A DNA stretch of 64,000 nucleotides from Physcomitrium patens (Eukaryota; Streptophyta; Bryopsida; Funariales; Funariaceae). The position numbers and the translations under genes were made by a program. Positions within the stretch are counted from its first letter, which is position 1. Each line of letters begins with the position of its first letter. The notes below the pieces were generated by a model that ran no database searches, had not been told where the DNA came from, and saw only the letters and a list, made by a program, of their open reading frames with translations. The stretch spans positions 6,275,396 through 6,339,395 of the forward strand of contig NC_037267.1 of NCBI RefSeq assembly GCF_000002425.4, given 5' to 3'. Positions 30,234 through 55,594 of the stretch are shown piece by piece.

Positions 30234-30239
30234 ATGCCA

Positions 30240-30520
30240 CAAGTGCGTACACAAGATCTTAGGGGATGTCATCTTGGGAATGAGTTTTGCAAATGTGGAC
30301 TGCGACTTGAGTGTCACCAAGAGGACCATTAGCGCCGAGCACAAGATCAGAATTAACACTATGGCATGTATCCTCGCCTACCAATTTTCCATGTGCATTA
30401 TAGAGGGTCACACACTTCGTAATCCACAGACGCCGAGGAAGTCCTTCGCACTCGGGAATTGCAAAACTGATGGATTCAGCGTCCTCAAAATCATCCCCTG
30501 ATGAATGAGCCATGTATGCT
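30240..30520 (-). pseudogene. Unidentified coding fragment, cut by B2
   Basis: The minus-strand frame reads AHSSGDDFEDAESISFAIPE, then a compact segment with LWITKCVTLYNAHGKLVGED, and is still open when it meets the B LTR at 30233. Composition and alternation of charged and hydrophobic residues look like real protein, and the base composition is that of the host block. The upstream end near 30520 is a guess from a possible splice acceptor; beyond it lies non-coding DNA with palindromes. I do not recognise the family. Confidence 0.4.
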
Positions 30521-30631
30521 TTGTATTCCGAAGCGTTTACGAGTCCTCTTGACAAAAACAACCACTTCATTAAAATGATGAAAGAAACCTTAAGCCAACA
30601 TCCAGACACAAGAGGCAGTATTCATACTTAT

Positions 30632-31935
30632 CAGATCGAGTTGATCTGATTAGCGGACATGTATGGATGAGAAAAAATTGTACAAAGCAAAACGATGAAC
30701 CGCATTTCAGTGAATGCCAATTTTCGAATGGCAGTGTACATCTCCGCACTAATAAGAATACGTGACACGTACATCAGCTCGAGTCGAGCTAATAATGGAT
30801 GTTAGAATTCACTCACAAGGACGTACCCGACGTCTAATTAAACCAGCTCAACTGAAGTTGATTATGGATATTGGTTCTGCAATATGAGGGCGTAATAGAG
30901 CACTCAGAAAATCAGCTCGACTTGAGCTGATTCAGATTATCAGTTATTTAAAAGAGGACGAACTAGACCTCACACAGAATAAGCTCGATTCGACTTGATT
31001 CTGGATACTGGTCTTCAATAACGAGGACAAACTGGACCTGTCATTGAATCAGCTCGAATGAAGCTGATTCTAGCTGTTAGTTTTCTTTAACGAGGATGTT
31101 CTGGACCTCTCAGAGAATCAGCTTGACTCGATCTGATTCTAAACGTTTGTTTTCAGTATCGATGACGTAATACACCTCTCAGAGAATCAGCTCGACTCGA
31201 GCTGATTGTTGACATTAATACTTTTGAATGAAGATGTAATGGACGTCTCAGAGAATCAACTCGACTCGAGCTGATTTTAGATTTTTGAAAACAATAAAAA
31301 TGACGAACTGGACCATTCATAGAATCATCTCAACTTGAGCTCATTCTATACAAAAAAATTTAATAACAAGGACGCATAGGACCTTTCAGAAAATATGGAC
31401 CTCTTAAAGAATCAGCTCGGCTGGATCTGATTCTGAACGATTGTTTTTAGTACCGAGGATGTAAATTACCTCTCATAGAATCAGCTCGACTCGAGCTGAT
31501 TGTTGACCTTAATACTATTAAATGAAGACGCACACGACGTCTCTGAGAATCAGCTCGACTCGAGCTGATTCTAGATAACAGTTTTCAATAACAAGGACGT
31601 ATTGGACCAATCAAAAATTTTGGACCTCTCATAGAATCAGCTCGACTCGATCTGATTCTGAACGTTTGTTTTCAATATCGACGACGTAATACACCTCTCA
31701 GAGGATCAGCTCGACTCGAGCTGATTGTTGACATTAATACCTTTGAATGAAGACTTACTGGACGTCTCAGAGAATCAACTCGACTCGAGCTGATTTTAGG
31801 TGATTGTATTCAATAACAATGACGCAGTGGACCTTTCATAGAATCAGCTCTACTCCAAGTGATTCTTGACAATAGTTTTGAACAACGAAGACGTATTGGA
31901 CCTTTCACAAAATCAGCTCGAGTCGAGCTGATTTC
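30632..31935. repeat. Palindrome array 1, about 18 units, period near 67 bp
   Basis: Each unit has an odd palindrome: arm AATCAGCTCGA, one central base, then the reverse complement of the arm, with substitutions in some units. Units are mostly 65-70 bp apart, sometimes about 90. The DNA between them is semi-conserved (a GACGTA..GGAC.TCTCAGAG phrase before each palindrome) but otherwise varies. Clear palindromes start near 30912, 31117, 31186, 31253, 31480, 31546, 31636, 31704, 31771 and 31910. Confidence 0.9.
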
Positions 31936-33291
31936 CATAGCACATATTATAAATTATCAGAGAGACACAGTTATAAAGTGAGTCATCTGCACTATTACGG
32001 AATTGTATGGGTACGTGTTACTGTAGCAGGACAAGATTGTACCGAATTCTGGATGAACAGTACTATATTGAAAAAAAATGCCCCTCCGCATCATTAGGTC
32101 ATTGCAGGACCTCACTCGCCAAAAATGTAATAAACGAGAGCACAAAGAGAAGACTAATCCATACATTACTCTTGCTGGGGGATAACCGCAACAGCCCAAA
32201 CGGCTGGACATGAAGACGTACAAAACATAAGAAGAAAACCAACACAATGGGCAACATCGGAACCCGCTTCAATTCAGACATGGAAGCTCACCTAAAAATT
32301 GGAAATTGTAAGTACAGAGAATGAGAGCAAAATTAATTCTAGCGCTCGTGCATTATCAATCGTAAGTAGACAAACCAAGGGACGTTCAGAGGGCATACCA
32401 CTTGGACACTGGAGGTCGACTAAGCTGCCAAATCGAAGAACGTAGCTAGTGTGCGAGCAAAGAGGAATGCAAAACACAGGATTGACATCGGCAGAACTGA
32501 CTCTGCGGGAATGCAGTCAACACAGCCCACCTACCCTGGGCACGATGTTATCCACCGTCAATCCTCCACAGCAGATCTGAACCGTCCATTACAATAGACA
32601 GGGGCAATGCCAAGGATCCAGGCACGGTTCGATACTTGGATGTCGAGGGTATGTTGCTACGGGGCAGGACTCTGTGAAGAATTGATGCTGACAGGACATC
32701 AATCGGGATGTGGGATGCGGATTTCTAAAACGTTCATATTTCAAGTTCAATTTTGTATGCTACTTCATATATCAATTATCTTGCTATGACATTTTATTCT
32801 TTGATAAGTGATAAAATGATTATATGAAAGAAGGACAAGTGAATTACTTGTTCGTTTAATCCTTCATTGCAAATGTGTGCATACCTCTAAAAGTAAATAT
32901 GCTTCAGATATTTTATGTGTCGATATGTAATCATCTTAAATGCATAGCATTGACTATATTTATATGATTATGTGGTAAAAGAAAAACTAAAATAAAACAT
33001 ATTAAGTAATAGTCCTTGTATTATGCATATCTTGTATAAATTATTGCGCATGTCAATAATATCAACATTCGTTAAATTGAGTCTTTTCATAGTCTTAATT
33101 TAATAGTGATCTTATATCTGTAATTGATTTTTTGATTGATCTTATATTTTTAATTGAAATTTTTATTATAGATGGAAAAGTTATCCTCGACTTGAGATTA
33201 ATTTATAAAAAGAAAGGATAATTTAAAATAATAAAGGATAATTTATAAACATGATATGAATATATTATGGAATTTTGAAGTTTGTAGGTTA
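31936..33291. other. No gene recognised between array 1 and A2
   Basis: The first 800 bp keep the composition of the host block, the last 500 bp are AT-rich. ORFs of 60-96 codons on both strands (32007-32281, 32292-32477, 32607-32789) show no motif and overlap each other, so I do not call them. Confidence 0.5.
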
Positions 33292-33843
33292 TGTCATGGC
33301 CATAATCATGTAAGCTAATAATAACATATAGAAATAGGTAGAAGTAAGTAAAAGTAGATAAAAGTAAACTAATTCTATAATATTTAATATAAAAGCTTCC
33401 TAGAAACTTCCTAGACGCTGCTTTGACTTCATAGGTGTCTTTAATTGACTTTTTGGATTAGAAACGTGGTCAACAAGTTGGCCATGTGCCACACATGTTG
33501 TTAGCTTGAAGATCAAGCTAACTATGTGGCCCACACGTAGAAAAACTTGCCTTGTAAGTCAAGGCATGTGTCCTACAAAGTCAACACATATTGGAGGTCC
33601 TATAGAACGTCGGCACGTAGCCCTTAGTTAGATAGTATATATAGAGACAAGAGTGAAGGCTTCTTCACTCTTGTCAACTCCTTTCTTGCTTCTAGTCCAG
33701 GTTCAAGAGTCTTTAGTTTCTTGTCTTCTGGCAATAGCCATTCTAGTTTCCTTTTAATATATCTACTTGTTTATATTTTGACTTGTTATATCGAGATAGC
33801 CTTTTGGTGTATATTTTCCCTCATAGAGTCTTTGTCCTTGACA
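33292..33843 (+). repeat. A2 5' LTR
   Basis: Starts TGTCATGGCCATAATC, ends CCTTGACA. A TATA motif (TATATATA) near 33647 is followed by the inverted repeat GACAAGAGTGAAG / CTTCACTCTTGTC. The sequence after the LTR, ATTGACAAGAGTACAC, complements the right arm. Confidence 0.9.
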
Positions 33844-34055
33844 GATTGACAAGAGTACACTTACAATATCAGAGCTTTATTTTTTCTTGAGTAAGAGTGG
33901 ATTACTCCTTTCTCTTGACAAGACATAAGCATATTAGAAGTTTGCGGATTATCCACTTCTAAACTGATATTGTTCTTAGTATCTTCTTTATTATCAAGTC
34001 TTTCTTTTCTTTTGTCTTGAGCAATATCAAACAAATTTTTCTTCTTAGTGTCATT

Positions 34056-35061
34056 ATGGCAGAGCTTGTTAAAATGAAGAGTGCAATGGCACAAATGCAA
34101 GAGCAAATGAGGGAGTTAATGCTTGCGATGCATCAACTCAATTCACTAACACATGAAAGAACAAGAATAGCAGAAAGTGGAGATATAGAGATGATCGAAG
34201 CTGCTTCAACATCTACAACAAATCACGTTCCTTCTCCAATTGTACAACACACTATAAGCACTAGAGAACCAAGAATTACCTTACTTGAGAAATTTGATGG
34301 TACGAGATCAAAGTTTCGATGGTTCATCAATCAAGTATAATTGGCAATTGAACTTCAACCGCAAAGCTATCCAACTCTAGGATCACAAGTCAGGTTTATT
34401 GGCACTCTACTTTCTGGTTCTGCATTATCGTGGTTTTCGTCTTTTCTTGAACAACGAAATCTAATATTGGACAATTTGAAAGATTTTTTGGCAGAGTTTC
34501 GATCTATGTATGGTGAACACGATGCAACTCGTGTTGCAACAAATAAGATCCGAATTCTGCGACAAGAAAATCGCTCAGTAACAGTATATGCTTTACAATT
34601 TCGACAACTTGTAATTGACATCAAGTGGGATGATGCTGCACTCATCAGTCAATTTGTTTATGGATTGCAATACGAAGTAAAGAAATTGATGCTCAACTTA
34701 TCTGATCCTCAAACTTTGAGTCAAGCAATCGATTTTGCGGTAAAATGTGATAATCGAATTTTCGAATTTTGATCCGAGAATCATTCACGGGAACCTCAAC
34801 GTTATTACTCAATGGCAACATCAACATCTTTGCAAAATGTACATTCAGAATTAGAAGACATGCAAATTGACGCGGTACGTTTTAAACCCCTAACTGAGTA
34901 AAAAAAAGATTCGTCGTCGTCAAGAAGGATTATGTTTATATTACAGAGAACCTAAGCACACTGTTCAACATTGTCCAAAGAAACGACGCAACTATAAAAT
35001 GAGGGGTACGACGGTCAAAGAAGACAACATGTCGGAAAATGGATTCGTCCAGCTACAATAG
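34056..35061 (+). pseudogene. A2 gag
   Basis: Starts MAELVKMKSAMAQMQEQMRELM at 34056. TAA at 34338-34340 and TGA at 34770-34772 replace Gln and Arg codons kept in A3. An extra run of A near 34902-34910 shifts the frame shortly before the zinc knuckle, which here has a Tyr for its second Cys (CLYYREPKHTVQHC). The order of motifs is the same as in A3. Confidence 0.85.
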
Positions 35062-35066
35062 GGACC

Positions 35067-38000
35067 GTGCAGCTGGAACCTTGTACAATTCCTAATGAAG
35101 GTCCTATCCTCTCCTCAAAACCCTCTCCTTGTTTTATAATAGACTTATATTTAGGACCTAAGAATTACAAAGCCTCTGCTTTATTAGATTCGGGAGCCTC
35201 AGCATGTTTTTTAGATGAATAATTTGTTAAAAGTCGTAAAATATCTTTTGTACAGATACCTAAACCAATACATGTAGAAGTTATAGATGGTCGTCCCTTG
35301 TCTTCTGGAGATGTCACTCATGAAACTCATTCTATAAAAGTAACAATAGACGGTCATGATAGCTACATAGCTTTTAACATAATTAAATCCCCGTCCAATT
35401 CAGTTATTATAGATTTATCCTGGCTAGAAAAATATAACCCTCGAATAGATTGGAATTCGCGTAAACTTGACTTTTCCCAAAGCGTTATTAATAGTTCTAC
35501 TAACCAAGTAAAAAATTATAAGTCTAGTATAGTAAAACCCGTACTGATAGGTACAAAAGCATTTATACACACAGCAAAAGAAGGATCAACTTTTGCTATT
35601 TATACTGCACCTATTTCTGAAAACGTAAAGACTTCAAGTGGCATTCCAAGTCAATATCAGGAGTATCAAGACGTTTTTGAGAAAAAGAATGCAGATATTC
35701 TTCCTGAGCATCGCCCATATGATTGTTCAATCGACCTCAAGGAAGGAACTCAGCCACCATTTGGATCAATTTACAGTTTATCGCAAGATGAGATGGCTGA
35801 ACTCAAGACATATATTGACGAGAATTTAGCGAAGAATTTCATACGCCATTCAAAATCTCCAGCAGGAGCTCCAATTCTATTCGTAAAGAAAAAAGATGGA
35901 TCTTTACGAATGTGTGTTGATTATCGAAGACTCAACAAGATCACAATCAAGAACAGATATCCATTACCTTTGATATCAGAACTCCTTGACCAGTTGAATC
36001 AAGCTAAGATCTATATAAAAATAGATCTAAGAGGAGTATATAATCTAGTACGGATCAAAGAAGGAGATGAATGGAAGACTGCGTTTCGAACCAGGTATGG
36101 ACATTTTGAATATAATGTCATGCCCTTTGGACTCACGAATGCACCAGCTGCTTTTCAACATCTCATGAATGATGTATTTCGTGAATTCTTAGACAATTTT
36201 GTCGTCTGCTATCTAGACGATATCTTGATCTATTCTAAGAACGTCGAAGAATATGAAATATATGTTCGTCAAGTATTACAAAAACTTAGAGATGCAGGAT
36301 TGTACGCCAAGATGGAAAAGTGTGTATTTTACACTACTCAAGTTGACTTTTTAGGATACATCATTTCAAATGATGGTCTCATGATGGATTCTAAGAAAGT
36401 CCAAACAATCATGGATTGGAAGATTCCAAGGATAGTAAGAGATGTCCAATGTTTCTTGGGATTTGCCAATTACTATCAGATCTTCATCAAAGTTTTCTCA
36501 CGAGTTGCAGCTCCACTTACACGCTTGACTAGTAAAGATAAATTCCAATGGAATCAAGAAGCGGAAGCAGCATTTGAAGCCTTGAAGACATCGTTTGTCT
36601 CTGCACCAGTCTTATATCGTGTTGACTTTTCCAAGGTATTTCTTATGGAAACAAATGCATCAGATTTTGCCTTGGGTGCAGTTTTATCACAAGTGGGAAC
36701 CGATGACAAACTTCATCTGATAGCTTTTCATTCAAGAAAATTCTCAACAGTCGAGATCAATTATGAGATCCACGATAAAGAACTTCTTGCGATCGTGGAT
36801 TCCTTTCAAGAATGGCGTCATTATCTAGAAGGCGCTTCTAGTCTAGTCACTGTATATACAAATCACAAGAACCTCGAGTATTTCATGTCAGCACGCGTAT
36901 TGAATCGTCGTCAAGCTCGTTGGAGAATGTCTTTGTCAAGATTCGAGTTCATTATCACTTATCGGCCAGGAAAACAACAAGGTTTTTCTGATGCCCTATC
37001 TAGACGTTCTTATTTTGTACCAAAAGAAGGAGATGCAGTTTTTGAGCAACAAAAAACGGTCCTCTTGAAACCGGAGCAATTTCATCTCCGAGCAATGAAA
37101 TCAACATTGACTGTTGATTCAACTTTTCTCAAGCAAATCCAGTCTAGTATGTCCTCAGACCCTCTTGTTTATGATATCGAGAATAATTCTTCCAAGTCTC
37201 ATGATCCTTCTAAGTTCGAGTTCAAGAATAATCTATTATATTTTGAAGGATGCCTATATGTTCCAGAAGAAGAAGCACATTTACGTGTTCTTCAAGCACG
37301 TCATGACTTTCTAGCAGCAGGGCACTTTGGATATAATAAGACTTTGGAACTCATATCAAGAGATTTTTGGTGGCCACAAATGTGGAAGTCAGTCAAAGAC
37401 TTTGTACAATCATGTGATATTTATTCAAGATCAAAAATTCCTTGTCATCGACCTTATGGACTTCTTCAGCCATTACCTATACCAGAACAACCATGGTCTT
37501 CTGTTTCTATGGATTTCATCACAGATCTTCCAAGCTCAAGATCTTATGATTCTATATTTGTGATAGTAGATCGTTTCACCAAGATGGCACATTTTGTGCC
37601 ATGTACAAAATCTATCATAGGTGAAGAAACAGCTAAGCTTTTCATTGATAATATCTATCGCTATCATGGATTACCTAAAGATATCATGTCGGATAGGGGA
37701 ATTCAATTTGTGTCAAGATTTTGGAGGACCCTTTTCAAGATTTTAAAAGTGGACATAAAGCTATCTTCGGCTTTCCATCCTCAAACTGATGGACAAACAG
37801 AGCGCGTAAACCAAGTCTTGGAGCAATATTTAAGGTGTACTATCAACTACCAACAAGATGATTGGACAACCCTTCTGCCATTGGCACAGTTTGCTTATAA
37901 TAATACGGTACATTCTTCCATGCAACAAACACCTTTCTTTGCCAATTATGGCTATCATCCACGACTTGATACTTTTGATTTTTCAAAAGTTGATAATCCT

Positions 38001-38555
38001 ACAGCAGAAGATATGGCAAATCGGTTGTCAGAGTTACATGCAATAATGAAGACGCAATTGAAGGAAGCTCAAGAACGACAAAAGATAAACGCAGATCTAT
38101 ATCGTAAGGAGCAACCACAAATCAACGTGGGTGATAAGGTATGGCTACTTCGTCGCAATATCAAGACTACTCGACCTTGTGACAAGTTAGACTATCGTAG
38201 GCTTGGCCCCTTTTCTCTTTCTGAACAGATCAACCCAGTTGTATATCGGTTACATCTACCGGAGTCAATGAAGATCCATCCTCTATTTGATGTGTCTCTT
38301 CTTGAACCATATAAGACAGTGGATATACAAGGAAGAAGACAAATGCCACCGCCTCCTATAGAAGTAGATAATAACGAAGAATTTGAGGTAGAAGAGATAT
38401 TAGACTCAAGGCGGTATCGAAATAAGCTGGAATATCTTGTTCATTGGCGCGGATATGATATTAGTGAATGCACATGAGAGCCATCCAGGAATTTAGGAAA
38501 TGCATCAGCTAAAGTCAAAGTTTTTCATCAACGACATCCATCAAAACCAAGATGA
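35067..38555 (+). pseudogene. A2 pol polyprotein, two premature stops
   Basis: A 1059-codon open stretch (35298-38477) covers the end of the protease, RT (CYLDDILIYS), RNase H, integrase (HHCC, D,D35E) and most of the chromodomain. Upstream, the protease LLDSGASACFLDE is followed by TAA at 35221-35223, where A1 has Gln. The chromodomain is cut by TGA at 38475-38477 in place of its Trp. METDASDF of RNase H is METNASDF here, an Asp-to-Asn change at a catalytic position. The zinc-binding CDIC is CDIY, so the integrase N-terminal domain has lost one Cys. Confidence 0.9.
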
Positions 38556-38659
38556 AAATTTCTCTTATAAAAGAGACAAGATTGAGGCAAGATAACATTC
38601 AATTTTCTATCCTTGTTTGTAACTTCTTTGCATTTGTGACGCTAATCAGATAGAGAGCC

Positions 38660-39071
38660 AACAACTAGCGGATTCAACTCAAGAACCTTAGTTTGCTGAC
38701 CTGCCGGACACGACATTTCGATTGTCACAACCTTCAAGATGACGCAATCGAGATGAAGATCTTCAAGAACGACATGTTCTTCCTCGAACAGATGGTGAGA
38801 TACAACGCGTTTGATATCACGATTTGGGAAGGAACTCTCGATGTTTGGTGATTTTGCTAGAAGTAGGAACAACTCCTGATGGTTTCCGAATATTCTATTC
38901 GAAGGAAGTTACGAAGGCCTCAACAATGATCAAATAACTGGGTGGTCTTCCCGCCCTGGTATGGGACACTACCGATGGTTGAGAGGCCCTATCAATCATC
39001 TTCGAAGAGAACAGAGATCAGAGTATGTGGCGAATACAATTCATCGCATCATAGATTTTCTCAACATATGA
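38660..39071 (+). pseudogene. A2 third ORF, decayed
   Basis: Homologous to 49520-49942. The start codon is ATA instead of ATG, and several stops and frame changes follow. Segments such as ADLPD, RLSQPSR and DEDLQERHVLPRTDGEIQRV remain readable. This shows that the ORF is an old part of the family, and that it decays like gag and pol. Confidence 0.7.
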
Positions 39072-39112
39072 TGACCACTCCTCGTGGAACTCGTCTCTAG
39101 AAAGGGGGGTAA

Positions 39113-39664
39113 TGGCACGGCCATAATCATGTAAGCTAATAATTACATATAGAAATAGGTAGAAGTAAGTAAAAGTAGATAAAAGTAAGCTAATTCTATA
39201 ATATTTAATATAAAAGCTTCCTAGAAACTTCCTAGACGCTGCTTTGACTTCATAGGTGTCTTTAATTGACTTTTTGGATTAGAAACGTGGTCAACAAGTT
39301 GGCCATGTGCCACACATGTTGTTAGCTTGAAGATCAAGCTAACTATGTGGCCCACACGTAGAAAAACTTGCCTTGTGAGTCAAGGCATGTGTCCTACAAA
39401 GTCAACACATATTGGAGGTCCTATAGAACGTCGCCACGTAGCCCCTAGTTAGATAGTATATATAGAGACAAGAGTGAAGGCTTCTTCACTCTTGTCAACT
39501 CCTTTTTTGCTTCTAGTCCAGGTTCAAGAGTCTTTAGTTTCTTGTCTTGTGGCAATAGCCATTCCAGTTTTCTTTTAATATATCTACTTGTTTATATTTT
39601 GACTTGTTATATCGAGATAGCCTTTTTGTGTATATTTTCTCTCATCGAATCTTTGTCCTTGACA
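39113..39664 (+). repeat. A2 3' LTR
   Basis: Follows the polypurine tract AGAAAGGGGGG. Starts TGGCACGG (third base changed) and ends CCTTGACA. By eye it differs from the 5' LTR at a dozen or so positions at most, so A2 is older than A3. Confidence 0.9.
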
Positions 39665-39669
39665 GGTTA

Positions 39670-40420
39670 ATGTGAGTAGTATAAGTAATCCGTTGTCGTG
39701 GGATTAGTCACATTAGTCACATTAGTCACATTTGATTTGGGAACTTCAAAATTCTTTATTTTATTCATGTACTAAAAGTAAACTATTCATTAAACGTTCA
39801 AAATGAATGAATGTCTTGAATGTGATACTTGAGTAATTAATTATTATTTTTTTATTCACATTGATTCAAGTTTTGAGAATGAAATGGAAGAAAAGGTAGT
39901 ATTTGCAATGACATGAATGGTTTTTTGATTAAGAAATTGGAGTAGATGAAAAGGGTTGGAAAATTTAAAATAATCATGTATATTAAAATTATTCTTTTTA
40001 AAAAACTTTACATATACAACCAAATGCAATCCACTGATTGTATTAGTTCGACCTGCTAGTGTGAAGAATTGTTTTTATTTAAAGGCATGTTTTGTTTTCA
40101 TTCATTTTGATTTTGTTGTGAAATGTCAGAAAATGGTCATTATACACTTTCTGTACACACATTATAGGAATGATTTGAAACTGAGATTTTATAGAAAAGA
40201 ACGTCGTTTCTCTCCAACATTTCCCATCCTGTTTCCCAGCAATTCCTGATGAGTTTCCGTGAAAACGACGTCGAAGCTCTCGACGAGTTTCTGCCGAAAT
40301 CGCACAAGGGAGCACGGCCGGGGCACCTGAACGCATATGCTCAGGGTGGGGGTTAAACAACATTCCCGCCCACAAATTTTTCCTCTTTCTCTTTTTTGTT
40401 GCGCACATCGCTTCTAGTGC
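39670..40420. other. AT-rich stretch after A2, no gene seen
   Basis: Begins with three short AGTCACATT repeats at about 39704-39731. It then runs AT-rich with no supportable coding region. The opposing ORFs at 40061-40507 lack motifs. Confidence 0.5.
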
Positions 40421-40915: not shown

Positions 40916-40949
40916 GTAATTCTCTACAAAATCAGTGTCGTTCCATTCA

Positions 40950-44510: not shown

Positions 44511-44533
44511 GAGGCAAGAGTGAAGCCCTCTTC

Positions 44534-44922: not shown

Positions 44923-45930
44923 ATGGCAGAGCTTGTTGAAATGAAGAGTGCAATGGCACAGATGCAAGAACAATTGAGGGAGTTAATGCTTGCGATGCAT
45001 CAACTCAATTTACCACCACAAGGAGCAACAAGAATGGTAGGAAGTGAAGATATAGAGATGATTGGGGCTACTTCAACATCTGCACCAAACCATGTCCCTT
45101 CTCCCAGAATGGAACACCCTTCGAGTGTTAGAGAACCGAGAGTTGCCTTGCCCGAGAAGTTTGATGGTACCAGATCCAAGTTTTGAGGATTCATCAATCA
45201 GGTCCAACTAGTGATTGAACTTCAACCCCAGAGCTATCCAACTCCAGGGTCACAAGTAAGATTCATTGGTACACTTCTTTCAGGTTCAGCATTGTCATGG
45301 TTTTCATCTTTTCTTGAACGACGAGATCCAATATTGGATAATCTGGAGGCTTTTTTGGCGGAGTTTCGATCCATGTTTGGAGAACATGATGCAATTCGTG
45401 TTGCAACCAACAAGATCCATATTTTGCGACAAGGCAATCGATCAGTAACATTATATGCTTCGTAATTTCGACAACTTGCAACTGATATCAAGTGGGATGA
45501 TGCCGCACTTGTGAGTCAATTTCTCTACGGATTACAATATGAGGTAAAGAAATTGATGCTAAATTTACCTGATCCTCAAACATTGAGTCAAGCAATTGAC
45601 TTTGCTGTGAAGTGCGACAATCGACTTTTTGAATTTCGATCCGAGAGTCGCACAAGTGGGCCTCAACGTTACTACAATTCAATGGCAACACCGATGTCTC
45701 CTCAACACATACCTTCGGAAGTAGAGGATATGCAAATTGATGCGGTACGTTTCAAACCTCTTACTGAGCAAGAAAAGTCTCGTCGTCGACAAGAAGGATT
45801 GTGCTTATATTGTGGAGAACCTAAGCACACTGCTCAACATTGTCCAAAGAAGCGACGTAACTACAAAATAAGGAGTACGGCTGTCAAAGAAGACAGTATG
45901 TCGGAAAACGAGTACGTCCAGCTACAATAG
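44923..45930 (+). pseudogene. A3 gag, two nonsense codons
   Basis: The 335-codon frame starts MAELVEMKSAMAQMQEQLREL (likely coiled coil), goes through the capsid region PEKFDGTRSKF and FIGTLLSGSALSWFSSFLE, and ends with the knuckle CLYCGEPKHTAQHC, which binds RNA. TGA at 45184-45186 replaces Arg (A1 keeps it) and TAA at 45463-45465 replaces Gln. I chose the ATG at 44923 because the same start is used in all three copies. The frame is otherwise intact, so this copy would need gag from elsewhere. Confidence 0.95.
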
Positions 45931-45935
45931 GGACC

Positions 45936-48900
45936 GTGCGGCTGGAATCTTGTACAACTTCTAATAAAGGTCCTATCTTCTCCTCAAAACCATCGCCTTG
46001 TTTTATAATAAATGTGAGTTTAGGACCTAATAATTACAAAGCCTCTGCCTTGGTAGATTCAGGAGCCTCATCTTGTTTTTTAGATGAAGAATTTGCTAGA
46101 TGTCATAGAATATCATTAATACAAAAAACTAAACCTGTACGCGTAGAAGTCATAGATGGTCGTCCGTTGTCTTCTGGAGATGTAACTCACGAAACACTTC
46201 CTGTAGATGTAGTAATAAATGGTCATAGTAGTTGCGTAATTTTTAATATAATTAGATCTCCCTCTAATCCAGTAATTTTAGGCTTATCATGGTTAGAAAA
46301 GTATAATCCTCGAATAGATTGGATTTCTCGTAAACTCGATTTTCCTCAGAGCATTAGTAACAGTTCTATTAACCAAGTAAAAAACCATGAGTCTAGTATA
46401 GTAAAACTCACACCTATAGGTGCAAAAGCATTTATACACACAGCAAAAGAAGGATCAACTTTTGCTATTTATGCTGCACCTATTTCTGAAAGCGTAAAGA
46501 CTTCAAGTGGCATTCCAAGTCAATATCAGGATTATCAAGACGTTTTTGAGAAAAAGAATGCAGATATTCTTCCTGAGCATCGCCCATACGATTGTTCAAT
46601 CGATCTCAAGGAAGGAACTCAGCCACCATTTGGACCAATTTATAGTTTATCGCAAGATGAGTTGGCTGAACTCAAGACATATATTGACGAGAATTTAGCG
46701 AAGAATTTCATACGCCATTCAAAATCTCCAGCAGGAGCTCCAATTTTATTCGTAAAGAAAAAGGATGGATCTTTACGAATGTGTGTTGACTATCGAGGAC
46801 TCAACAAGATCACAATCAAGAACAGGTATCCATTACCTTTGATATCAGGACTCCTTGACCAGTTAAATCAAGCTAAGATCTATACAAAAATAGATCTAAG
46901 AGGAGCATATAATCTAGTACGGATCAAAGAAGGAGATGAATGGAAGACTGCGTTTCGAACCAGGTACGGGCATTTTGAATATAATGTCATGCCTTTTGGA
47001 CTCACGAATGCACCAGCTGCTTTTCAACATCTCATGAATGATGTATTTCGTGAATTCTTAGACAATTTTGTCGTCTGCTACCTAGACGATATCCTGATTT
47101 ATTCTAAGAATGTTGAAGAACATGAAATACATGTTCGTCAAGTATTACAAAAACTCAGAGATGCAGGATTGTACGCCAAGATGGAAAAGTGTGTATTTCA
47201 CACTATTCAAGTTGACTTTTTAGGATACATCATTTCAAATGATGGTCTTATGATGGATTCTAAGAAAGTCCAAACAATCATGAATTGGAAGATTCCAAAG
47301 ACTGTGAGAGATGTCCAATGTTTCTTGGGATTTGCCAATTACTATCGGATCTTCATCAAAGACTTCTCACGAGTTGCAGCTCCACTTACACGCTTGACTA
47401 GTAAAGATAAATTCCAATGGAATCAAGAAGCGGAAGCAGCATTTGAAGCCTTGAAGACATCGTTTGTCTCTGCACCAGTCTTATATCATGTTGATTTTTC
47501 CAAGGCATTTTTTATGGAAACAGACGCATCGGATTTTGCCTTGGGTGCAGTTTTATCACAAATGGGAACAGATGACAAACTTCATCCGATAGCTTTTCAT
47601 TCAAGAAAATTCTCAGCAGCCGAGATCAATTATGAGATCCACGATAAAGAACTTCTTGCAATCGTGGATTCCTTTCAAGAATGGCGTCATTATCTAGAAG
47701 GTGCTTCTAGTCCAGTCACTGTGTATACAGATCACAAGAACCTCGAGTATTTCATGTCAGCACGCGTGTTGAATCGTCGTCAAGCTCGTTGGAGTATGTC
47801 TTTGTCAAGATTCGACTTCATTATCACTTATCGGCCAGGAAAACAACAAGGTTTGTCCGATGCCCTATCTAGACATTCTTATTTTGCACCAAAAGAAGGA
47901 GATGCAGCTTTTGAGCAACAAAGAACGGTCCTCTTGAAACTGGAGCAATTTCATCTCCGAGCAGTGAAATCAACATTGACTGCTGATTCAACTTTTCTCA
48001 AGCAAATCCAGTCCAGTATGTCCTCAGACCCTCTTGTTCATGATATCAAGAATAATTCTTCCAAGTCTCATGATTCTTCTAAGTTCGAGTTCAAAAATAA
48101 TCTATTATATTTTGAAGGACGCCTATATGTTCCAGAAGGAAAAGCACGTTTGCGTGTTCTTCAAGCACGTCATGACTTTCCAGCAGTAGGGCACTTTGGA
48201 TATAATAAGACTCTGGAACTCATATCAAGAGATTTTTGGTGGCCACAAATGTGGAAGTCAGTCAAAGACTTTGTACAATCATGTGATATTTGTTCAAGAT
48301 CAAAAATTCCTCGACATCGACCTTACGGACTTCTTCAGCCATTACCTATACGAGAACAACCATGGTCTTCTGTTTCTATGGATTTCATCACAGATCTTCC
48401 AAACTCAAGATCTTATGATTCTATATTTGTGATAGTAGATCGTTTCACCAAGATGGCACATTTTGTGCCATGTACAAAATCTATCATAGGTGAAGAAACA
48501 GCTAAGCTTTTCATTGATAATATCTATCGCTATCATGGATTACCTAAAGATATCATATCGGATAGGGGAACTCAATTTGTGTCGAGATTTTGGAGGACTC
48601 TTTTCAAGATTTTAAAAGTGGACATAAAGCTATCTTCGGCTTTCCATCCTCAAACTGATGGACAAACAGAGCGCGTAAACCAAGTCTTGGAACAGTATTT
48701 AAGGTGTACCATCAACTACCAACAAGATGATTGGACAAACCTTCTGCCATTGGCAGAGTTTGCTTATAATAATACGGTACATTCCTCCACGCAACAAACA
48801 CCTTTCTTTGCCAATTATGGCTATCATCCACGACTTGATACTTTTGATTTTTCAAAAGTTGATAATCCTGCAGCAGAAGATATGGCAAATCGGTTGTCAG

Positions 48901-49424
48901 AGTTACATACAATAATGAAGGCGCAGTTGAAGAAAGCTCAAGAACGACAAAAAAAAAATGCAGATGTATATCGTAAAGAACAACCACAACTCAACGTGGG
49001 TGATAAGGTATGGCTACTTCGTCGCAATATCAAGACCACTCGACCTTGTGACAAATTGGACTATCGTAGGCTTGGCCCCTTTTTTGTTTCTGAACAGATC
49101 AACCCAGTTGCATATCGGTTACATCTACCGGAGTCAATGAAGATCCATCCTGTATTCCACGTGTCTCTTCTTGAACCATATAAGACAGTGGATATACAAG
49201 GAAGAAGAAAAATGCCACCGCCTCCTATAGAAGTAGATAATAATGAAGAATTTGAGGTGGAAGAGATATTAGACTCAAGGCGGTGCCGAAATAAGCTGGA
49301 ATATCTTGTTCATTGGTGCGGATATGATATTAGTGAGCGCACATGGGAGCCATCCAAGAATCTAGCAAATGCATCAGCTAAAGTCAAAGTTTTTCATCAA
49401 CGACATCCATCAAAACCAAGATGA
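45936..49424 (+). CDS. pol: A3 pol polyprotein: protease, RT, RNase H, integrase, chromodomain
   Basis: An intact 1162-codon frame. Protease active site DSG at residues 41-43; RT active site YLDD at 382-385 with FVKKKDGSLRMCVDYRGLN before it; RNase H start METDASDF near 527-534; integrase zinc site H746, H753, C783, C786; catalytic D816, D876 and E912 with exactly 35 residues between the last two; GPF-like C-terminal domain; and a chromodomain over about the last 57 residues (EEFEVEEILDSRR, WEPSKNLA). The polyprotein would be cut by its own protease, copy RNA into cDNA in particles and insert it in chromatin marked for the chromodomain. It starts 5 nt after the gag stop in the -1 frame. That frame is open back to 45861, so the real start could be by frameshift; GTG at 45936 is only the first start-like codon. 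Confidence 0.95.
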   Translation: MRLESCTTSNKGPIFSSKPSPCFIINVSLGPNNYKASALVDSGASSCFLDEEFARCHRISLIQKTKPVRVEVIDGRPLSSGDVTHETLPVDVVINGHSSCVIFNIIRSPSNPVILGLSWLEKYNPRIDWISRKLDFPQSISNSSINQVKNHESSIVKLTPIGAKAFIHTAKEGSTFAIYAAPISESVKTSSGIPSQYQDYQDVFEKKNADILPEHRPYDCSIDLKEGTQPPFGPIYSLSQDELAELKTYIDENLAKNFIRHSKSPAGAPILFVKKKDGSLRMCVDYRGLNKITIKNRYPLPLISGLLDQLNQAKIYTKIDLRGAYNLVRIKEGDEWKTAFRTRYGHFEYNVMPFGLTNAPAAFQHLMNDVFREFLDNFVVCYLDDILIYSKNVEEHEIHVRQVLQKLRDAGLYAKMEKCVFHTIQVDFLGYIISNDGLMMDSKKVQTIMNWKIPKTVRDVQCFLGFANYYRIFIKDFSRVAAPLTRLTSKDKFQWNQEAEAAFEALKTSFVSAPVLYHVDFSKAFFMETDASDFALGAVLSQMGTDDKLHPIAFHSRKFSAAEINYEIHDKELLAIVDSFQEWRHYLEGASSPVTVYTDHKNLEYFMSARVLNRRQARWSMSLSRFDFIITYRPGKQQGLSDALSRHSYFAPKEGDAAFEQQRTVLLKLEQFHLRAVKSTLTADSTFLKQIQSSMSSDPLVHDIKNNSSKSHDSSKFEFKNNLLYFEGRLYVPEGKARLRVLQARHDFPAVGHFGYNKTLELISRDFWWPQMWKSVKDFVQSCDICSRSKIPRHRPYGLLQPLPIREQPWSSVSMDFITDLPNSRSYDSIFVIVDRFTKMAHFVPCTKSIIGEETAKLFIDNIYRYHGLPKDIISDRGTQFVSRFWRTLFKILKVDIKLSSAFHPQTDGQTERVNQVLEQYLRCTINYQQDDWTNLLPLAEFAYNNTVHSSTQQTPFFANYGYHPRLDTFDFSKVDNPAAEDMANRLSELHTIMKAQLKKAQERQKKNADVYRKEQPQLNVGDKVWLLRRNIKTTRPCDKLDYRRLGPFFVSEQINPVAYRLHLPESMKIHPVFHVSLLEPYKTVDIQGRRKMPPPPIEVDNNEEFEVEEILDSRRCRNKLEYLVHWCGYDISERTWEPSKNLANASAKVKVFHQRHPSKPR

Positions 49425-49519
49425 AAACCTCTCTTATAAAAGAGACAAGATTGAGGCAAGATAACATTCAATTTCCTATCCTTGTTTATAAATTCTTTAC
49501 ATTTTGTGACGCTAATTAG

Positions 49520-49942
49520 ATGGAGAGCCAACAACCAGCGGATTCAACTCAAGAACCTTCGTTTGCTGACTTACCGGATGAGACATTGCGATTGTCACAA
49601 CCTTCAAGACGATGCAACCGAGATGAAGACCCTCAAGAACGACATGTTTTTCCTCGAATAGATGGTGAGATACAACGCGTTTGGTATCACGACCTTGGAA
49701 GAGATTCTCGATGTTTGGTGATATTATTGGAGATAAGAACGACTCCTGATGGTGTTTCAAATGTATTATTTGAAGGAAGTTATGAAGGCCTCAACAGTGA
49801 TCAAATAACAGGGTGGTCTTCTCGCCCTGGAATGGGACACTATCGATGGCTAAGAGGACCCATCAACTATCTTCGAAGAGAACAAAGATCAGAGTATGTA
49901 GCAAATACAATTCGCCGCATATTAGATTTTCTCAATATATAA
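49520..49942 (+). CDS. A3 third ORF downstream of pol, unknown function
   Basis: A complete 140-codon ORF beginning MESQQPADSTQEPSFADLPD 95 nt after the pol stop. The N-terminal third is acidic then Arg-rich (RLSQPSRRCNRDEDPQERH), the middle is a possible beta-rich domain (DSRCLVILLEIRTTPDG), and the C-terminus is a basic helix-like block (GHYRWLRGPINYLRREQRS). Homologues exist in A2, in a remnant in A1, and in family C at 10637-10990, all in the same place. No signal peptide or membrane segment is seen, so an envelope role is unlikely. I do not recognise it. Confidence 0.8.
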   Translation: MESQQPADSTQEPSFADLPDETLRLSQPSRRCNRDEDPQERHVFPRIDGEIQRVWYHDLGRDSRCLVILLEIRTTPDGVSNVLFEGSYEGLNSDQITGWSSRPGMGHYRWLRGPINYLRREQRSEYVANTIRRILDFLNI

Positions 49943-49969
49943 TCACCGCTCCTCGTGGAACTCGTCTCT

Positions 49970-49983
49970 AGAAGGGGGGGTAA
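49970..49983 (+). promoter_or_regulatory. A3 polypurine tract
   Basis: AGAAGGGGGGGTAA directly before the 3' LTR. It primes plus-strand DNA synthesis. It is also seen before the 3' LTR of A1 and A2. Confidence 0.85.
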
Positions 49984-50513
49984 TGTCACGGACATACATA
50001 TAATTACCTATATGAATAGATAAAAGTATGTAAAAGTAGGTTAATTGTGTAATATCTTCTAGAGAAGCTTCTTAGAAGCTTCATAGACGCTGCTTTGACT
50101 TTATAGGAGTCTATAGTTGACTTTTAGGTTAGAAACTTGGTCAACAAGTTAGCCATGTGCCACGCATATTGGAAGCTTAAAGAACAAGCTAACTACGTGG
50201 TCCATCCATAGAAAACTTGCCTTGCAAGCAAAGGCATGTGGTCTAGAAAGTCAACATATATTGGAGGTCTTATAGAACATCGCCACGTGGCTTCTAGTTA
50301 GATAGTATATATAGAGGCAAGAGTGAAGCCCTCTTCACTCTTGTCAACTCCTTTCTTGCTTCTAGTTTAGTTTCAAGGGTCTCTAGTTTTCTTGTATTTT
50401 GGCAATAGCCATTCCAGTTTCTTTCTTAATATACATATTTCTATTTTGTCCTATTTCTTTTTGAGAAAAGTCTCACTTACTCTTTAGCTTTCATCGAGTT
50501 CTTGTCCCTGACA
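49984..50513 (+). repeat. A3 3' LTR
   Basis: 530 bp, nearly identical to the 5' LTR. Differences noticed: CGCATG versus CGCATA near 50165 and GTGGCC versus GTGGTC near 50240. Both are single transitions. Confidence 0.95.
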
Positions 50514-51733
50514 CCCGGAGTCCATCTACAACCTCTGGAGTGAGGTTATTTCTAGTCCTGCCCACGGGGAGCTCTACAACCCCGACACCTCTATGAAATT
50601 CAACGAGAAAGAGAACTGGAAGCAGGAGAGTTGCATGCTCAGCCGCGAGTACTTCAAGTGGCTCGGCAACCTGAGCCTGAATGATCTGGAGAGACTCGCG
50701 AAACACCTTCTTAACCAATCTGGGGAGAAGCGAAAGTTCCCCTATCCAAAGGTGACGATTAAATCAATCTCGTCTGTGCTTGAGAGCTGCTATAGCACGA
50801 AGGACTGGGTCGAGAGGAGGAAGAAGAAGCAGCTAGTGAAGAAGGAGCTCGACAACATAGACCCAAGCTTGGAATTAATCAACGCGGAGGGCGACCTAAT
50901 TTATGAGAATTGGAAGGCATTCAAGACGGCTCGTAATATCACGAGTGCATCAATAAACGTCGTCCTTGAGCGGCCTGGAGAATCCTACTTTGCTGAAGCG
51001 AAGCAACTGAAGTCCAAGAACAAGACTTGTACGCAGATTTCTCCGGCCGCAGCAGAGTTCTTCAAAGTTTTCTTGAATCATAAGAACGGGTTCCAGGTGC
51101 CATACGCATGTGCCTATTACAAGACTTATGATGTGAGGACGAACACCTTCAGTAAGTGGAAAGACAACGCATGGAATAACGAGAGCGCTCGTGATATCGG
51201 GCTTGGAATCATCGACCTCCGAGAGCTTCCGGGGGTGGAAGATGATCTTATAGAACAAAACACCGTCCCTTATTTCCATCAAGTTCTTGCTGCTTTGGAA
51301 AAGAATAGAAGTCCATACTTCGCAGATGGAAAGAGGTGGCTCTTCATATCCAGTTGCGAGAGCCACAGACTGCAGACAATGGACTTTATCAACTCGCACG
51401 AGGCCTTCAAAGGCCTGCACATCGACTTTGCAGACTACATTCCTGCAAAGTTCGAGCAACTTGGAGATTCTTCAGTTGGACGAGTGCCAAGGAAGGTGAT
51501 CCTCACTTTCTTGCAAGATGTAGACGCCCGTGACCGTGTCGAGATCCGACCGAAATTTCTTCCTCCCGACACACCAATGTTTACCAAGCCTCACGGCTAC
51601 AACGAGTTGGAGTTTCGAGTATACAACACCGAACTACGAATGGAGTTCTATCTCTGGCTAGTCCGGAAGTTCTGTCGTCCAAGGGGGTCCATTTTTTCAC
51701 TATGGGGGGGAGGCAAGATCACTTGCGCGGTAA
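50514..51733 (+). pseudogene. Exon continued: amino-methyltransferase-like segment
   Basis: Open reading through the whole exon after the duplicated CCCGG, ending at a donor-like AATG/GTAGGT near 51733. The C-terminal half resembles the beta-class N6/N4 amino-methyltransferase order: a strand plus loop at the place of motif IV (IGLGIIDLRELPG, where DPPY would be), then KRWLFISSCESHRLQTMDFI, then a PHGYNELEF..ELRMEFYLWLVRKF helix, and at the end CRPRGSIFSLWGGGKITCA, matching motif I (LDPFxGSGTT) in spacing. The key residues are changed (DPPY to DLRE, DPF to SLW), so methyl transfer is doubtful. ParB-like plus methyltransferase fusions are known in phages and bacteria. The assignment is my reading of motifs and needs profile support. 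Confidence 0.45.
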
Positions 51734-51744
51734 TGGTAGGTACT

Positions 51745-52065
51745 CAATCAGCTCGAGTTGAGCTGATTTGCTTCTCAATCAGCTCGAGTGGATCTGATTT
51801 ACTTTTCAATCAGCTTGAGTCGAGCTGATTTTCTTCTCAATGAGCTCGAGTCGAGTTGATTTGCTTCTGAATCAGCTAGAGTCAAGCTGATTTTCTTCTG
51901 AATCAGCTCCAGTCGAGCTGATTTTTTTCTAAATCAGCTCGAGTCGAGCTGGTTTTCTTCTAAATCAGCTCGAGTCGAGCTGATTTTCTTCTAAATCAGT
52001 TCGAGTTGAGCTGAATTGCTTCTCAATCAGCTCGAGTCGATCTGATTTACTTCTCAATCACATTC
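51745..52065. repeat. Palindrome array 3, period 30 bp, inside an intron
   Basis: About ten units of the palindrome followed by a short TTCTTCT or TGCTTCTC spacer, giving a 30-bp period. Arms are mostly AATCAGCTCGA, with the central base G. The array starts about 10 bp after the donor at 51733 and ends about 50 bp before the acceptor near 52113. Confidence 0.95.
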
Positions 52066-52113
52066 ATTTCTTTTTTTCATATCCACTAAGCTGTCCGCGT
52101 GGCATTTCATGCA

Positions 52114-53194
52114 GATGAGTTCCGTGGATGTCTTTGCGGGCGGAGGGACTGGAGAGTCGGATCGGTGGGAAGAGATCTCTAGGAAAGCACTCACTCTTGA
52201 CAGAGATGACTTCCTTCCCAGTGGATACAAGGTGAGTGCGATATACAAGTCTATGGCCACCCCGCCCACACGGTCAAGAGTTGGAGCACGGCTCAGTGAC
52301 CGCTTTGAGTCTTCTCCATCAAAGAAGCGGAGGACAACACCAGTTGACGACGTCCTCGTTATATCTGATGAAGACGACAACAAAGGGGACAACCACGACT
52401 ATGACCCGGACGAGGAGAAGGAAGTCGACGAGAAGGTCAAAATCGATGACGACGACCTTCAAGAGTTGGATTCCATTCAGCCCAACGCCACATTACCTGA
52501 GCGGCGATCTTGGGTTATTCCGCAGTCAGCACAAGCATCTGATAATCCACCTTCCGGTGGAACTCCTGGTGCGTCATCTTCTCGGGGGCGGAGGAGGAAG
52601 AGGAAGGACATGGACTTTGTGGCTACCGTCATGGAGTCCATTTCGGCGATTTTGGCAGACAGCCAGCGGAGGCACGAGCAGCAGATTGCAGAAATCAACA
52701 CTCGACAAGATCGTGATCGTGCCGAGAGCATGAGATTGTTCGAGGAGTCCCGGAGGATGCACAAAGACACATCCCGCATGATGCTGCAGCAGCAGCAGAC
52801 AAATCTTCTCCTCTCTACATTCGTGAGGCTTAATCCCCAACTGCCAGACGCCCTTCCCGCCCCTCCTTCCTAGCCTCCGTCGCTGATGCTTGGGAATGCG
52901 CCATCTCGATCTGTTATGAGCGGATCCAGTAGTGGACATGCGGAAGCCACCAATCTTCCGCATTCAAGTGCTGTCAATGTCTCGGGCGAAGTGGCTCCTA
53001 CTACATCTCAACAACACAGTCCGACGTCTTCGGCAATCAATTTTTCAATCGGTGAAGTTTTCAGAGTAGAGGCAGCGTCAGTAGAACCACATTCCATGGA
53101 GCGCCCCACAAATCTAGAGGACGATACTCTAGAGATAGCGGTTGGCAGTGATCAATTAGCCTTTCCGGATCCAGATGCAGGTTTTGACACATAA
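52114..53194 (+). pseudogene. 3' exon: acidic, basic and coiled-coil nuclear-type tail
   Basis: After acceptor TTTCATGCAG the frame is open to 53194 except for TAG 52871-52873 (CAG to TAG). It has SSPSKKRRT (basic), then DDVLVISDEDDN, a typical SUMO-interacting motif, a long Asp/Glu/Lys stretch, RGRRRKRKD (a nuclear localisation type), a coiled coil of about 80 residues rich in Arg, Glu and Gln, and a Ser/Thr/Pro-rich end. It is most simply the C-terminus of the gene begun at 42328, but splicing was not verified. The tail is eukaryotic in style, in contrast to the prokaryote-like domains before it. Confidence 0.5.
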
Positions 53195-53413
53195 TCACTC
53201 GCTGTCAATTTTTTTTAGCTCGACTCGAGGTGATTTGTGTTATTGACTAGTGCGTCTAGAGTATAGTTGAATAGGCAAATTTTTTTTGATACGGAGTTCC
53301 TAATGGAACCAACCAGGGAGCTCAATACTTTTGATATGAATTTTGTACATTTTTACTCAATCAATGAGTTTCAAATACTTGAGGGGCTCATTTGCTTCTA
53401 CATTGAATCACAG
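53195..53413. other. Spacer or intron with one palindrome
   Basis: A degenerate palindrome copy is at about 53213-53236. The right end reads TCACAG, a plausible acceptor. Confidence 0.4.
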
Positions 53414-53574
53414 GTGATGAAATCCTTGCAACTTTGTCAGCTCCTTCTGCTTCTCCCTCTCCGCTGTTTTATCCCACCTCGATGGCATTCGTTGTTTCTG
53501 CCAAGTCGTTGCCTGAGTCGCGGACCGTGATCTCTGACAGTCAGTCCGAATCATTTGCCTCTTCAAAGCAAAAG
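53414..53574 (+). pseudogene. Candidate exon before the FCP1-like domain
   Basis: Bounded by CACAG and AAAAG/GTGTGT. It reads as Ser-rich protein (ATLSAPSASPSPLFYPTSM, then SDSQSESFASSKQK) and joins in phase to the exon at 53742. It may be a low-complexity N-terminus of the FCP1-like protein, or a link from the upstream gene. Confidence 0.4.
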
Positions 53575-53741
53575 GTGTGTTTCATTATCCCGTGTTCTAG
53601 GCTCCTCTGGTATGTGTGTCTTCCACGGTGCGCTTCTTTGTCTATGGCATGTAATTGTATGGTGCATTTCGGGATCGTCGCGCTCATTTGTAGTTAGTGA
53701 AAGGCATAATTGGCTCCTTATTGGGCCGTTTGTCTTAGCAG

Positions 53742-54542
53742 GTATCCGATCCTCCAGTTCGTAGTGAGGGGCCGTTGGAAGACCTTGGTCGTCCATTGAG
53801 GTCCATGGCGGTTGACAAGTGGCTGAACGTCGTTCTAGACCTCAATGGAATTCTCTGTGTTTGCGAGGATTGGAAGTCTAATCGAAGCACAAAGCAATAT
53901 AGCAACTCTTTGGCACCGCACTCAGCCACGATTGGCGCCATTGTGGAAATGAAAGCTGTCTACGTGCGGCCGAATTGTTTGAATTTTTTGGCGGAGCTAG
54001 GAAAAATAGCCAGGATTAGTGTATGGAGCTCTATGAAAAGTTCGAACATCCAGGGCATTGTAAATTACCTTTTTCCAAAAGAGATGTTGCCAGGCCTCGT
54101 ACTAGGGCAGGATTCGTGTACGACAATTCGATTCCGAGACTCCTCAGGACGATTGACCACCTTCATGGTTCCTGGAACGCATAAAGAGTTGTTCTTGAAA
54201 AATTTAGACACTCTATTCTCTGGTTATAAGGGAATCTTCAATTCAGAAAACACAATCATAGTGGACTACAGTCCTCTGAAGCACATCATGAACGATTCAA
54301 AGAATGTCTTGCTTCCAAACTCTTGGTCTAATGATGGGAACGGGAACCGGGACACATTCCTCCTCCGCACCTTGCTTCCTTAGTTTCAACGACTGCACCT
54401 TGCTCGTGACCAAGGGTTAAAGTTATTCCGAGAACATGGGCCAAACAGGATTGGACAAAAAATGTTGCACGATGAACGGAATCGCACTGAATATAACAAG
54501 GTCATGGAGCTAGTTCGAGGGTCTTCTCCTAATTATAATTAG
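53742..54542 (+). pseudogene. FCP1/HAD-like domain gene, degenerate active site
   Basis: The exon begins after TCTTAGCAG and runs to a TAG at 54540-54542, with one premature TAG at 54381-54383 (probably a Trp codon). It shows the FCP1/NLI-type HAD fold: WLNVVLDLNGILCV (motif I, DxDxT changed to DLNGI), AVYVRPNCLNFLAELGK, ARISVWSSM (motif II), a region with LFLKNLDTLF, and IIVDYSPLKH (motif IV, DDSP changed to DYSP). Real FCP1 phosphatases dephosphorylate the RNA polymerase II tail. Loss of two catalytic Asp residues argues for a pseudo-phosphatase or a decayed copy. The DLNG form occurs in a plant FCP1-like subfamily, so the change may predate the decay. Confidence 0.7.
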
Positions 54543-54923
54543 GACAGCCATGCACGCATGTATTGTAAGAGTACGTATCTCCGCAGAGGACTTTGATTCA
54601 GATCGAGTCGAGCTGATTTGTCAATGTATTGGATCAATGGACATTTGTTTACTTGTCATGGATGTGGAAATAGGAGTTGGAGGTCATGTGCAATTCTCTG
54701 ATGGATAGTATTGTATAGTGTTTCATGCAACGTGGTCGTGATGTACCATGTATCTTATTGCAACTATATTTCCAGTTCTTGATTTATGTGTTTACATCCA
54801 TGTCAGTACTTCACGATAGTACGAGAATGTTGTGGATGACAAGTACAAGTGTTTGTATGGATAGGTAATCAGATTTTTCGTTTCAAATTGTATTGATCTG
54901 AAATTTTTGATGGATTGAAACAG
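54543..54923. other. Spacer or intron with one palindrome
   Basis: A palindrome variant with GATCGAGTCGAGC core lies at about 54596-54619, 30 to 50 bp after a possible donor (TTGTAAGAG). The right end is GAAACAG. No coding region is seen. Confidence 0.45.
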
Positions 54924-55340
54924 GTCCGTCGATTGCAATGCGAAGTGTCTGCAGATTCCATCATGGACTACGGCCAGAACGTTCTTCTCAGCACAGGAAA
55001 CTTCCTTTGCTCTGCTCCTTCTGTCAATTCGACTATGGACTTCTCTAAGAAGCCTGTTGACGATGGGGTGGTGGATAGTCCTTTGGAGAAGAAAGTGCAG
55101 TTGTCTGACCTGGACAGGCCCTCTACACTGCGTACAATGGAAGTTGAGGCTCCGACCATGTCCCTATTAACTATTGTAAGATTGATGCAAAAAAAAGTGT
55201 ATGGAGATGCTAATTATGACAAAGTGTTGCCGAAAGTACCGGATTATCTTCGAGATGACAACCATGAGATACTTCGTAATGCAGCAAAGTCTACATCAGC
55301 ACAACAAGACATAAAATCCTTTCTACATTGCAATATTTGA
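54924..55340 (+). pseudogene. Unidentified exon-like ORF
   Basis: It follows an acceptor-like GAAACAG and is open for 138 codons to a TGA. Segments: VRRLQCEVSADSIMDYGQN, KKVQLSDLDRPSTLRTMEVE, LTIVRLMQKKVYGDANYDK. The composition fits the host block. It could be the last exon of the FCP1-like gene or of a different one. I do not recognise it. Confidence 0.4.
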
Positions 55341-55594
55341 AAAGGAAATGTGAGCCATGACTGGACTGATAGTTGATTATTTCTGAGGTTGTAGATGAGG
55401 TTTTCTAAGTTTGCAAATTATTTAGTAAGTTCTACACTCACGACATGTATATTTGGTGATTATTTGAAATAAAATTCTCTACATTTCAATTTGAATTCAT
55501 TGTACTCCACCAATTTTCAATGTTCCAGAAGGACCTCTACTTCATGCTTTTGGTTTTTAAACCTCCTCAACACTTTCAATTCACTGGAATTCTC
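55341..55594. other. AT-rich spacer, no feature seen
   Basis: The end of the host block. No palindrome or coding region here. Family D begins at about 55595. Confidence 0.5.

Follow-up and report, generated by a model that had tools for sequence, protein, structure and literature searches.

A truncated moss DNA transposon copy with internal 23-bp palindromes and a candidate ParB-methyltransferase-fold reader

We analyzed a 64,000-nucleotide stretch of the Physcomitrium patens genome (contig NC_037267.1, positions 6,275,396 to 6,339,395), here called the window, in which an odd-centered palindrome recurs within a single block. This block belongs to a class II DNA transposon of about 15.6 kb with terminal inverted repeats (TIRs), of which it is a truncated and decayed copy. 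On balance, our analysis favors the reading that the palindromes are recognized by a protein encoded by the element's own cargo gene, either to counter silencing or for self-regulation. That protein is predicted to combine a ParB fold with a beta-class DNA-methyltransferase fold in one chain. The transposon is the ordinary part of the finding, and the unusual part is a deeply retained palindrome that travels with the ParB-methyltransferase-fold gene.

The palindrome is 23 bp long and dyad symmetric, with the architecture AATCAGCTCGA-N-TCGAGCTGATT. Scanning the window with AATCAGCTCGANTCGAGCTGATT at up to 3 mismatches gave 41 matches, all within 30772-54618, while 100 shuffles of the window gave 0, so that none is expected by chance; neither of the two inserts that interrupt the block nor the remainder of the window held a match at this threshold. 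A looser scan added decayed palindromes, for example with centers at 30640, 43838, and 53224. An earlier note on this DNA, made by a model from the sequence alone, had described dozens of such palindromes, absent from the transposons and other window DNA, and had named several single ones; the recurrence and the absence were both confirmed, and every named single palindrome is present within a few bases. Of its three array periods (about 67, 44, and 30 bp), 44 was exact, and the other two are corrected here to 69 and 31. Its block end at 55500 is replaced by the element's right end at 55616.

Most palindromes stand in three tandem arrays: array 1 (30772..31933; period, 69 bp) upstream of the putative transposase gene, array 2 (41016..41641; 44 bp) upstream of the cargo gene, and array 3 (51746..52047; 31 bp) in cargo intron 2. 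The mean majority-base share in arms versus spacers was 0.92 versus 0.68, 0.97 versus 0.76, and 0.94 versus 0.84, respectively, and the spacers of the three arrays appear to be mutually unrelated. Because every array conserves its arms better than its spacers and the spacers look unrelated, the palindrome is the part that is kept, as the earlier note had argued against a satellite monomer. Tandem arrays of concerted units, whose number varies among copies (7 to 12 units for array 3 in six copies), are also what a neutral satellite spread inside the element by slippage and gene conversion would produce. However, the three arrays differ in both spacer and period and have the palindrome alone in common, their arms outlast their spacers, and the palindrome is retained both in introns of relatives at a synonymous divergence (dS) near 1 and in the tails of far more distant relatives (see below), making a neutral satellite highly improbable.

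We also considered intron RNA hairpins that steer splicing or yield small RNAs. The palindromes do occur in introns that are transcribed, and could fold into a 10-bp stem closed by a 3-base loop. We compared changes in the five C/G pairs across 110 distinct palindromes, taken from the window and six element copies. Changes that preserve a G-U pair (37) were, however, no more common than changes that break the pair (38). These equal counts fit decay together with selection on double-stranded DNA and give no sign of an RNA hairpin. Many palindromes also lie upstream of genes, and both the center and the sequence are kept, beyond what pairing alone would ask, so hairpins are very unlikely to be the function.

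The earlier note confined the palindrome to one block. This holds within the window and fails in the genome (470 Mb), where 711 palindromes were found at up to 3 mismatches and a reversed control gave 0. An even spread, which the note said would count against a gene system with its own binding sites, was not seen: perfect palindromes among the matches listed fell in seven loci, all with a common inner layout. We fetched seven loci outside the window's copy, chosen via the listed perfect palindromes, and aligned them, as that note had recommended. They are one unit with sharp common ends, 15,270-16,947 bp long in six copies and 24,042 bp long in one copy with further inserts; long aligned pieces are mostly 95-97% identical, with single pieces ranging from about 92% to 98%. 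All seven fetched copies have 25-bp TIRs with 1-3 differences between the two ends. Six are flanked by exact 4-bp target-site duplications (AAAT, TTAT, CTAA, ATTA, TTTG, and CTAA), and the seventh (C15) is flanked by CTAT and CCAT. Because seven other loci carry the unit with shared ends, TIRs, and target-site duplications, we identify the block as a DNA transposon rather than as a locus standing alone. Of the two suggestions in the earlier note, domesticated or mobile, the second is thus supported, and nothing was seen that points to domestication. Together with the window's copy, these loci account for 308 of the 711 palindromes, at 34-41 per copy.

The element encodes genes on both strands. 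A 975-amino-acid open reading frame (ORF) (P0219), read from the minus strand close to the left end, is intact in one copy and broken in the other five copies scanned; it matches DUF7869 (E value, 1.9e-42), and because of its place and size, the protein is a likely transposase. The plus strand carries the intron-split cargo gene and an NIF/FCP1-like gene. In the C1 copy, 43 palindromes were found at up to 4 mismatches: 17 upstream of the putative transposase gene, 9 and 2 upstream of the cargo gene, 3 in intron 1, 10 in intron 2, 1 after exon 3, and 1 after the phosphatase gene. None of the 43 lies in coding parts, as the gene boundaries were read. With array 1 directly upstream of the DUF7869 gene, the palindromes could instead be sites for the DUF7869 protein, used for excision or self-repression as with TnpA of Spm/En; several plant transposons carry many transposase sites. 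This explanation is unlikely, given that the palindromes are internal, mostly in the cargo introns and upstream region and away from the terminal repeats, and that in relatives they accompany the cargo gene.

In the window, the second insert interrupts the cargo gene, which also contains in-frame stops, and two of its stretches match a P. patens protein with 92% (204 residues) and 93% (166 residues) identity. We therefore read folds from homologues. Exon 1 (homologue P0003) is predicted to adopt a ParB/sulfiredoxin fold, as in the ParB N-terminal domain, and exon 2 (homologue P0072) is predicted to adopt a beta-class DNA-methyltransferase fold. The ParB-like/methyltransferase-like gene of the earlier note is thus upheld at the level of predicted folds, both in one protein. 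Beta-class DNA methyltransferases are marked by a DPPY-type catalytic motif and an FxGxG motif, and the cargo protein alignment departs from both. By our placement of the motifs, the likely motif IV retains Pro-Pro in about half to two-thirds of 54 rows; the position after it is not aromatic in any of the 51 rows shown and is followed by an invariant-like Trp. Motif I has the form [FY]xGxK, and all 47 of 47 rows carry the K. Judged from these residues, the methyltransferase motifs look degenerate, and the protein is probably a DNA reader. The FCP1-like gene of the earlier note is supported by PF03031 in the homologue on contig L001 (E value, 2.4e-14; 53.8 bits versus a cutoff of 21.8). A divergent paralogue in P. 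patens, P0132, shares 44% identity with L001 exon 2 across 68% of the query and perhaps comes from a second element family in this genome.

Next, we examined whether the palindrome is retained in relatives. In a scan of 11.3 million genome contigs from a prokaryotic collection, the exact 21-base palindrome occurred in 2 contigs, L001 and L002, both of which encode the cargo gene; homologous genes lacking it, which the earlier note said would count against its proposal, were therefore not what these contigs showed. In their assembly, all 16 palindromes (at up to 1 mismatch) are confined to these contigs, 8 in each, and all lie outside the coding exons. L001, a 7.4-kb contig labeled cyanobacterial, has exon 1, exon 2, exon 3, and the phosphatase gene in the same order as the element. 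L002, also labeled cyanobacterial, has the three cargo exons and ends at the next exon. Because their genes are intron split, L001 and L002, from the metagenome-assembled genome (MAG) AVDCRST_MAG81, are probably eukaryotic contamination of a desert-crust MAG, as is probably true of the protein P0005 (AVDCRST_MAG94), which likewise bears a cyanobacterial label. Between L001 and L002, dS for the three exons was 1.01, 0.84, and 1.14, and the ratio of nonsynonymous to synonymous divergence was 0.14, 0.12, and 0.25. These ratios indicate that the cargo gene is under selection, and the dS values indicate that the palindromes have outlasted saturating neutral change.

The scan also bears on a further alternative, in which a host transcription factor is recruited by the palindromes as promoter or enhancer elements. 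Upstream and intron positions suit such elements. However, the exact palindrome occurred nowhere in that prokaryotic collection but in the two contigs with the cargo gene, and a few copies would suffice for a host factor, compared with 34-43 per element. Twenty-two specified symmetric bases are also long for a single plant factor. We regard recruitment of a host factor as quite unlikely.

More distant relatives carry traces of the palindrome as peptides because prokaryote-style gene calls run an exon on into the intron. Among exon 1 homologues, 14 of 69 carried strict palindrome-derived peptide motifs (shuffle mean, 0.17), as did 13 of 79 among exon 2 homologues (shuffle mean, 0.18); the shuffle maximum was 3. 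P0106 has its motif inside the exon, and the other 26 of these 27 homologues, among 148 relatives, have theirs in read-through tails. They are not independent events, because the set includes L001 and L002 themselves (as P0072 and P0073) and many of its other members are mutually related. A wider peptide motif occurred 30 times in tails (13,320 residues) versus 3 times elsewhere (47,870 residues). Two arms compatible with a palindrome were found in 22 of the 30 tail motifs, against a shuffle mean of 14.9, and 13 of 5,000 shuffles reached 22.

Taken together, the parts fit a self-recognition system, in that a symmetric site in control regions and introns adjoins a candidate reader with two DNA-related folds. 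The 23-bp palindromes would be dyad-symmetric DNA sites for an element-encoded protein, and the ParB-methyltransferase-fold protein, most likely as a dimer, would read rather than methylate them. Because palindromes sit upstream of the transposase and cargo genes and in the cargo introns, protein bound there would cover the control regions of the element, and this coating would allow the element's copies to be told apart from the host genome. The likeliest purpose would be to hold the control regions open in the face of host silencing, or else to regulate the genes of the element itself, in a manner like that of the VANC protein discussed below. Binding of the palindromes, the identity of the binder, and the anti-silencing role are all inferred.

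Several observations weigh against this proposal. The best Foldseek ParB match has an E value of 1.7e-3, with none below 1e-3, and the model has a predicted template modeling score (pTM) of 0.43. Only the ParB N-terminal domain was matched, and no site-binding helix-turn-helix was found, the alignment stopping at model residue 411 and exon 1 beyond it being modeled with low confidence. Neither terminal repeats nor a DUF7869 gene were seen on L001 or L002, so that the residence of the relatives in transposons is presumed. None of the 68 phosphatase homologues carried palindrome peptides, a result that would be expected without a following intron and that adds no support. In the genome, 403 of the 711 palindromes are unplaced, and because the element copies there look decayed, activity today is doubtful. 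VANC motifs diverge quickly, whereas the moss palindrome is retained over deep protein divergence.

In the window, the element spans 30236-55616; the first 2,977 bp of the full unit are missing, and only the right terminal repeat is kept. By alignment to other copies, it lies on the plus strand in three pieces, 30236..33294 (C1 positions 2978-6037; 96% identity by BLAST against the C1 and C11 copies), 39664..44178, and 50514..55361, followed by the right end at 55362..55616 (98% identical to that of C1), which closes with the 25-bp right TIR (55592..55616, minus strand). The gaps between pieces are insert 1 (33295..39663, with a 1,059-amino-acid ORF) and insert 2 (44179..50513, with a 1,162-amino-acid ORF), which the earlier note took for retrotransposons (A2 and A3). 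Of the DUF7869 gene, a 5'-end remnant is left at 30236..30621 on the minus strand (element positions 2978-3363, matching 5' sequence of the ORF in C11; coordinates converted from the element). All other coding parts are on the plus strand. They comprise cargo exon 1 (42328..43770; in-frame stops; read against P0048 and P0050, with boundaries by our own reading), the 5' part of exon 2 (44051..44178), its remainder beyond insert 2 (50514..51739), which holds the predicted methyltransferase fold, exon 3 (52115..53194), which encodes an acidic, coiled-coil-like tail, a small exon (53414..53574; by our own reading against L001 and L002), and the FCP1/NIF-like phosphatase exon (53742..54542; one in-frame stop). 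Outside the arrays, single palindromes lie upstream of exon 1 at 41974..41996, where a change on both arms preserves the symmetry, and at 42168..42190. Three more are in intron 1 (43778-43800, about 43827-43849, and 43949-43971), a decayed one seen in the looser scan lies past the cargo gene stop (53213..53235), and another is downstream of the phosphatase gene (54596..54618).

Other repeats were also observed in the window. An unrelated odd palindrome, GTTAGCTTGAT-C-TTCAAGCTAAC, and its reverse complement (10 of 11 arm pairs) are centered at 18378, 23862, 33511, and 39332 and may fall in the paired long terminal repeats of two inserts. Clusters of TTCTAGAA lie at 9105-9310 and 11059-11123; this motif occurs 10 times in the window versus 2.9 expected, with 1 of 100 shuffles having as many. 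We take the clusters to resemble heat-shock elements, perhaps of a heat-responsive retrotransposon, ONSEN being one such in Arabidopsis. At 22669-22860 there is a 95-bp tandem duplication whose two copies are 98% alike.

Several known systems resemble parts of the moss element. In Spm/En, many copies of one motif are bound by the element protein TnpA, and those sites are subterminal, whereas the moss palindromes are internal. ParB, Noc, and KorB share with the moss protein the predicted exon 1 fold and a dyad-symmetric site on the encoding replicon or element. In contrast to them, the moss protein is eukaryotic, intron split, fused to a methyltransferase fold, and without a helix-turn-helix that we could find, and its central motif is NGQH where ParB has an arginine motif. 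CcrM and M.MboIIA, beta-class DNA N6A/N4C methyltransferases, share the predicted exon 2 fold, while the catalytic and cofactor motifs of the moss protein look degenerate. The CcrM site is GANTC, which is also the center of the moss palindrome, a match that may be chance. A more specific version of our proposal, which we consider doubtful, is that a ParB-type clamp loads at parS-like palindromes in introns and promoters, spreads, and shields the element from silencing, so that bacterial-type parts, conserved across mosses or wider, would have converged on the VANDAL/VANC arrangement. Were this so, the central GANTC would be a relic of a CcrM-type target.

In layout, the moss element is strikingly like VANDAL21 of Arabidopsis; the proteins and the motif are unrelated. 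We considered and rejected the moss element as a VANDAL (Mutator-like) transposon with VANC, as Pfam returned no VANC-type family in the cargo exons and DUF7869 alone for the putative transposase, which comes with target-site duplications of 4 bp; those of Mutator elements are 9 bp. In VANDAL21, VANC21 binds YAGTATTAY tandem repeats that lie within introns of both VANC21 and VANB21 and also upstream of VANA21, and these places lose methylation (PMC5735166; PMC10398659). Both VANDAL21 and the moss element are DNA transposons with tandem motif arrays, variable in number between copies, in their own noncoding parts, in accessory-gene introns and upstream of the transposase (PMC5735166). The VANC21 motif described there has 9 bases and a direction, whereas the moss motif is a 23-bp palindrome; the moss candidate reader has predicted ParB and methyltransferase folds; and binding and methylation loss, demonstrated for VANC21, would be the counterpart expected in moss. 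If our proposal is true, this is a second, independently built plant transposon encoding a reader of its own motif arrays, with ParB and DNA-methyltransferase folds brought together in a single eukaryotic transposon protein. The convergence of anti-silencing systems would then become testable in a model plant whose genes are readily targeted, and the long, symmetric, conserved motif would be a simple handle for finding such elements in other genomes.

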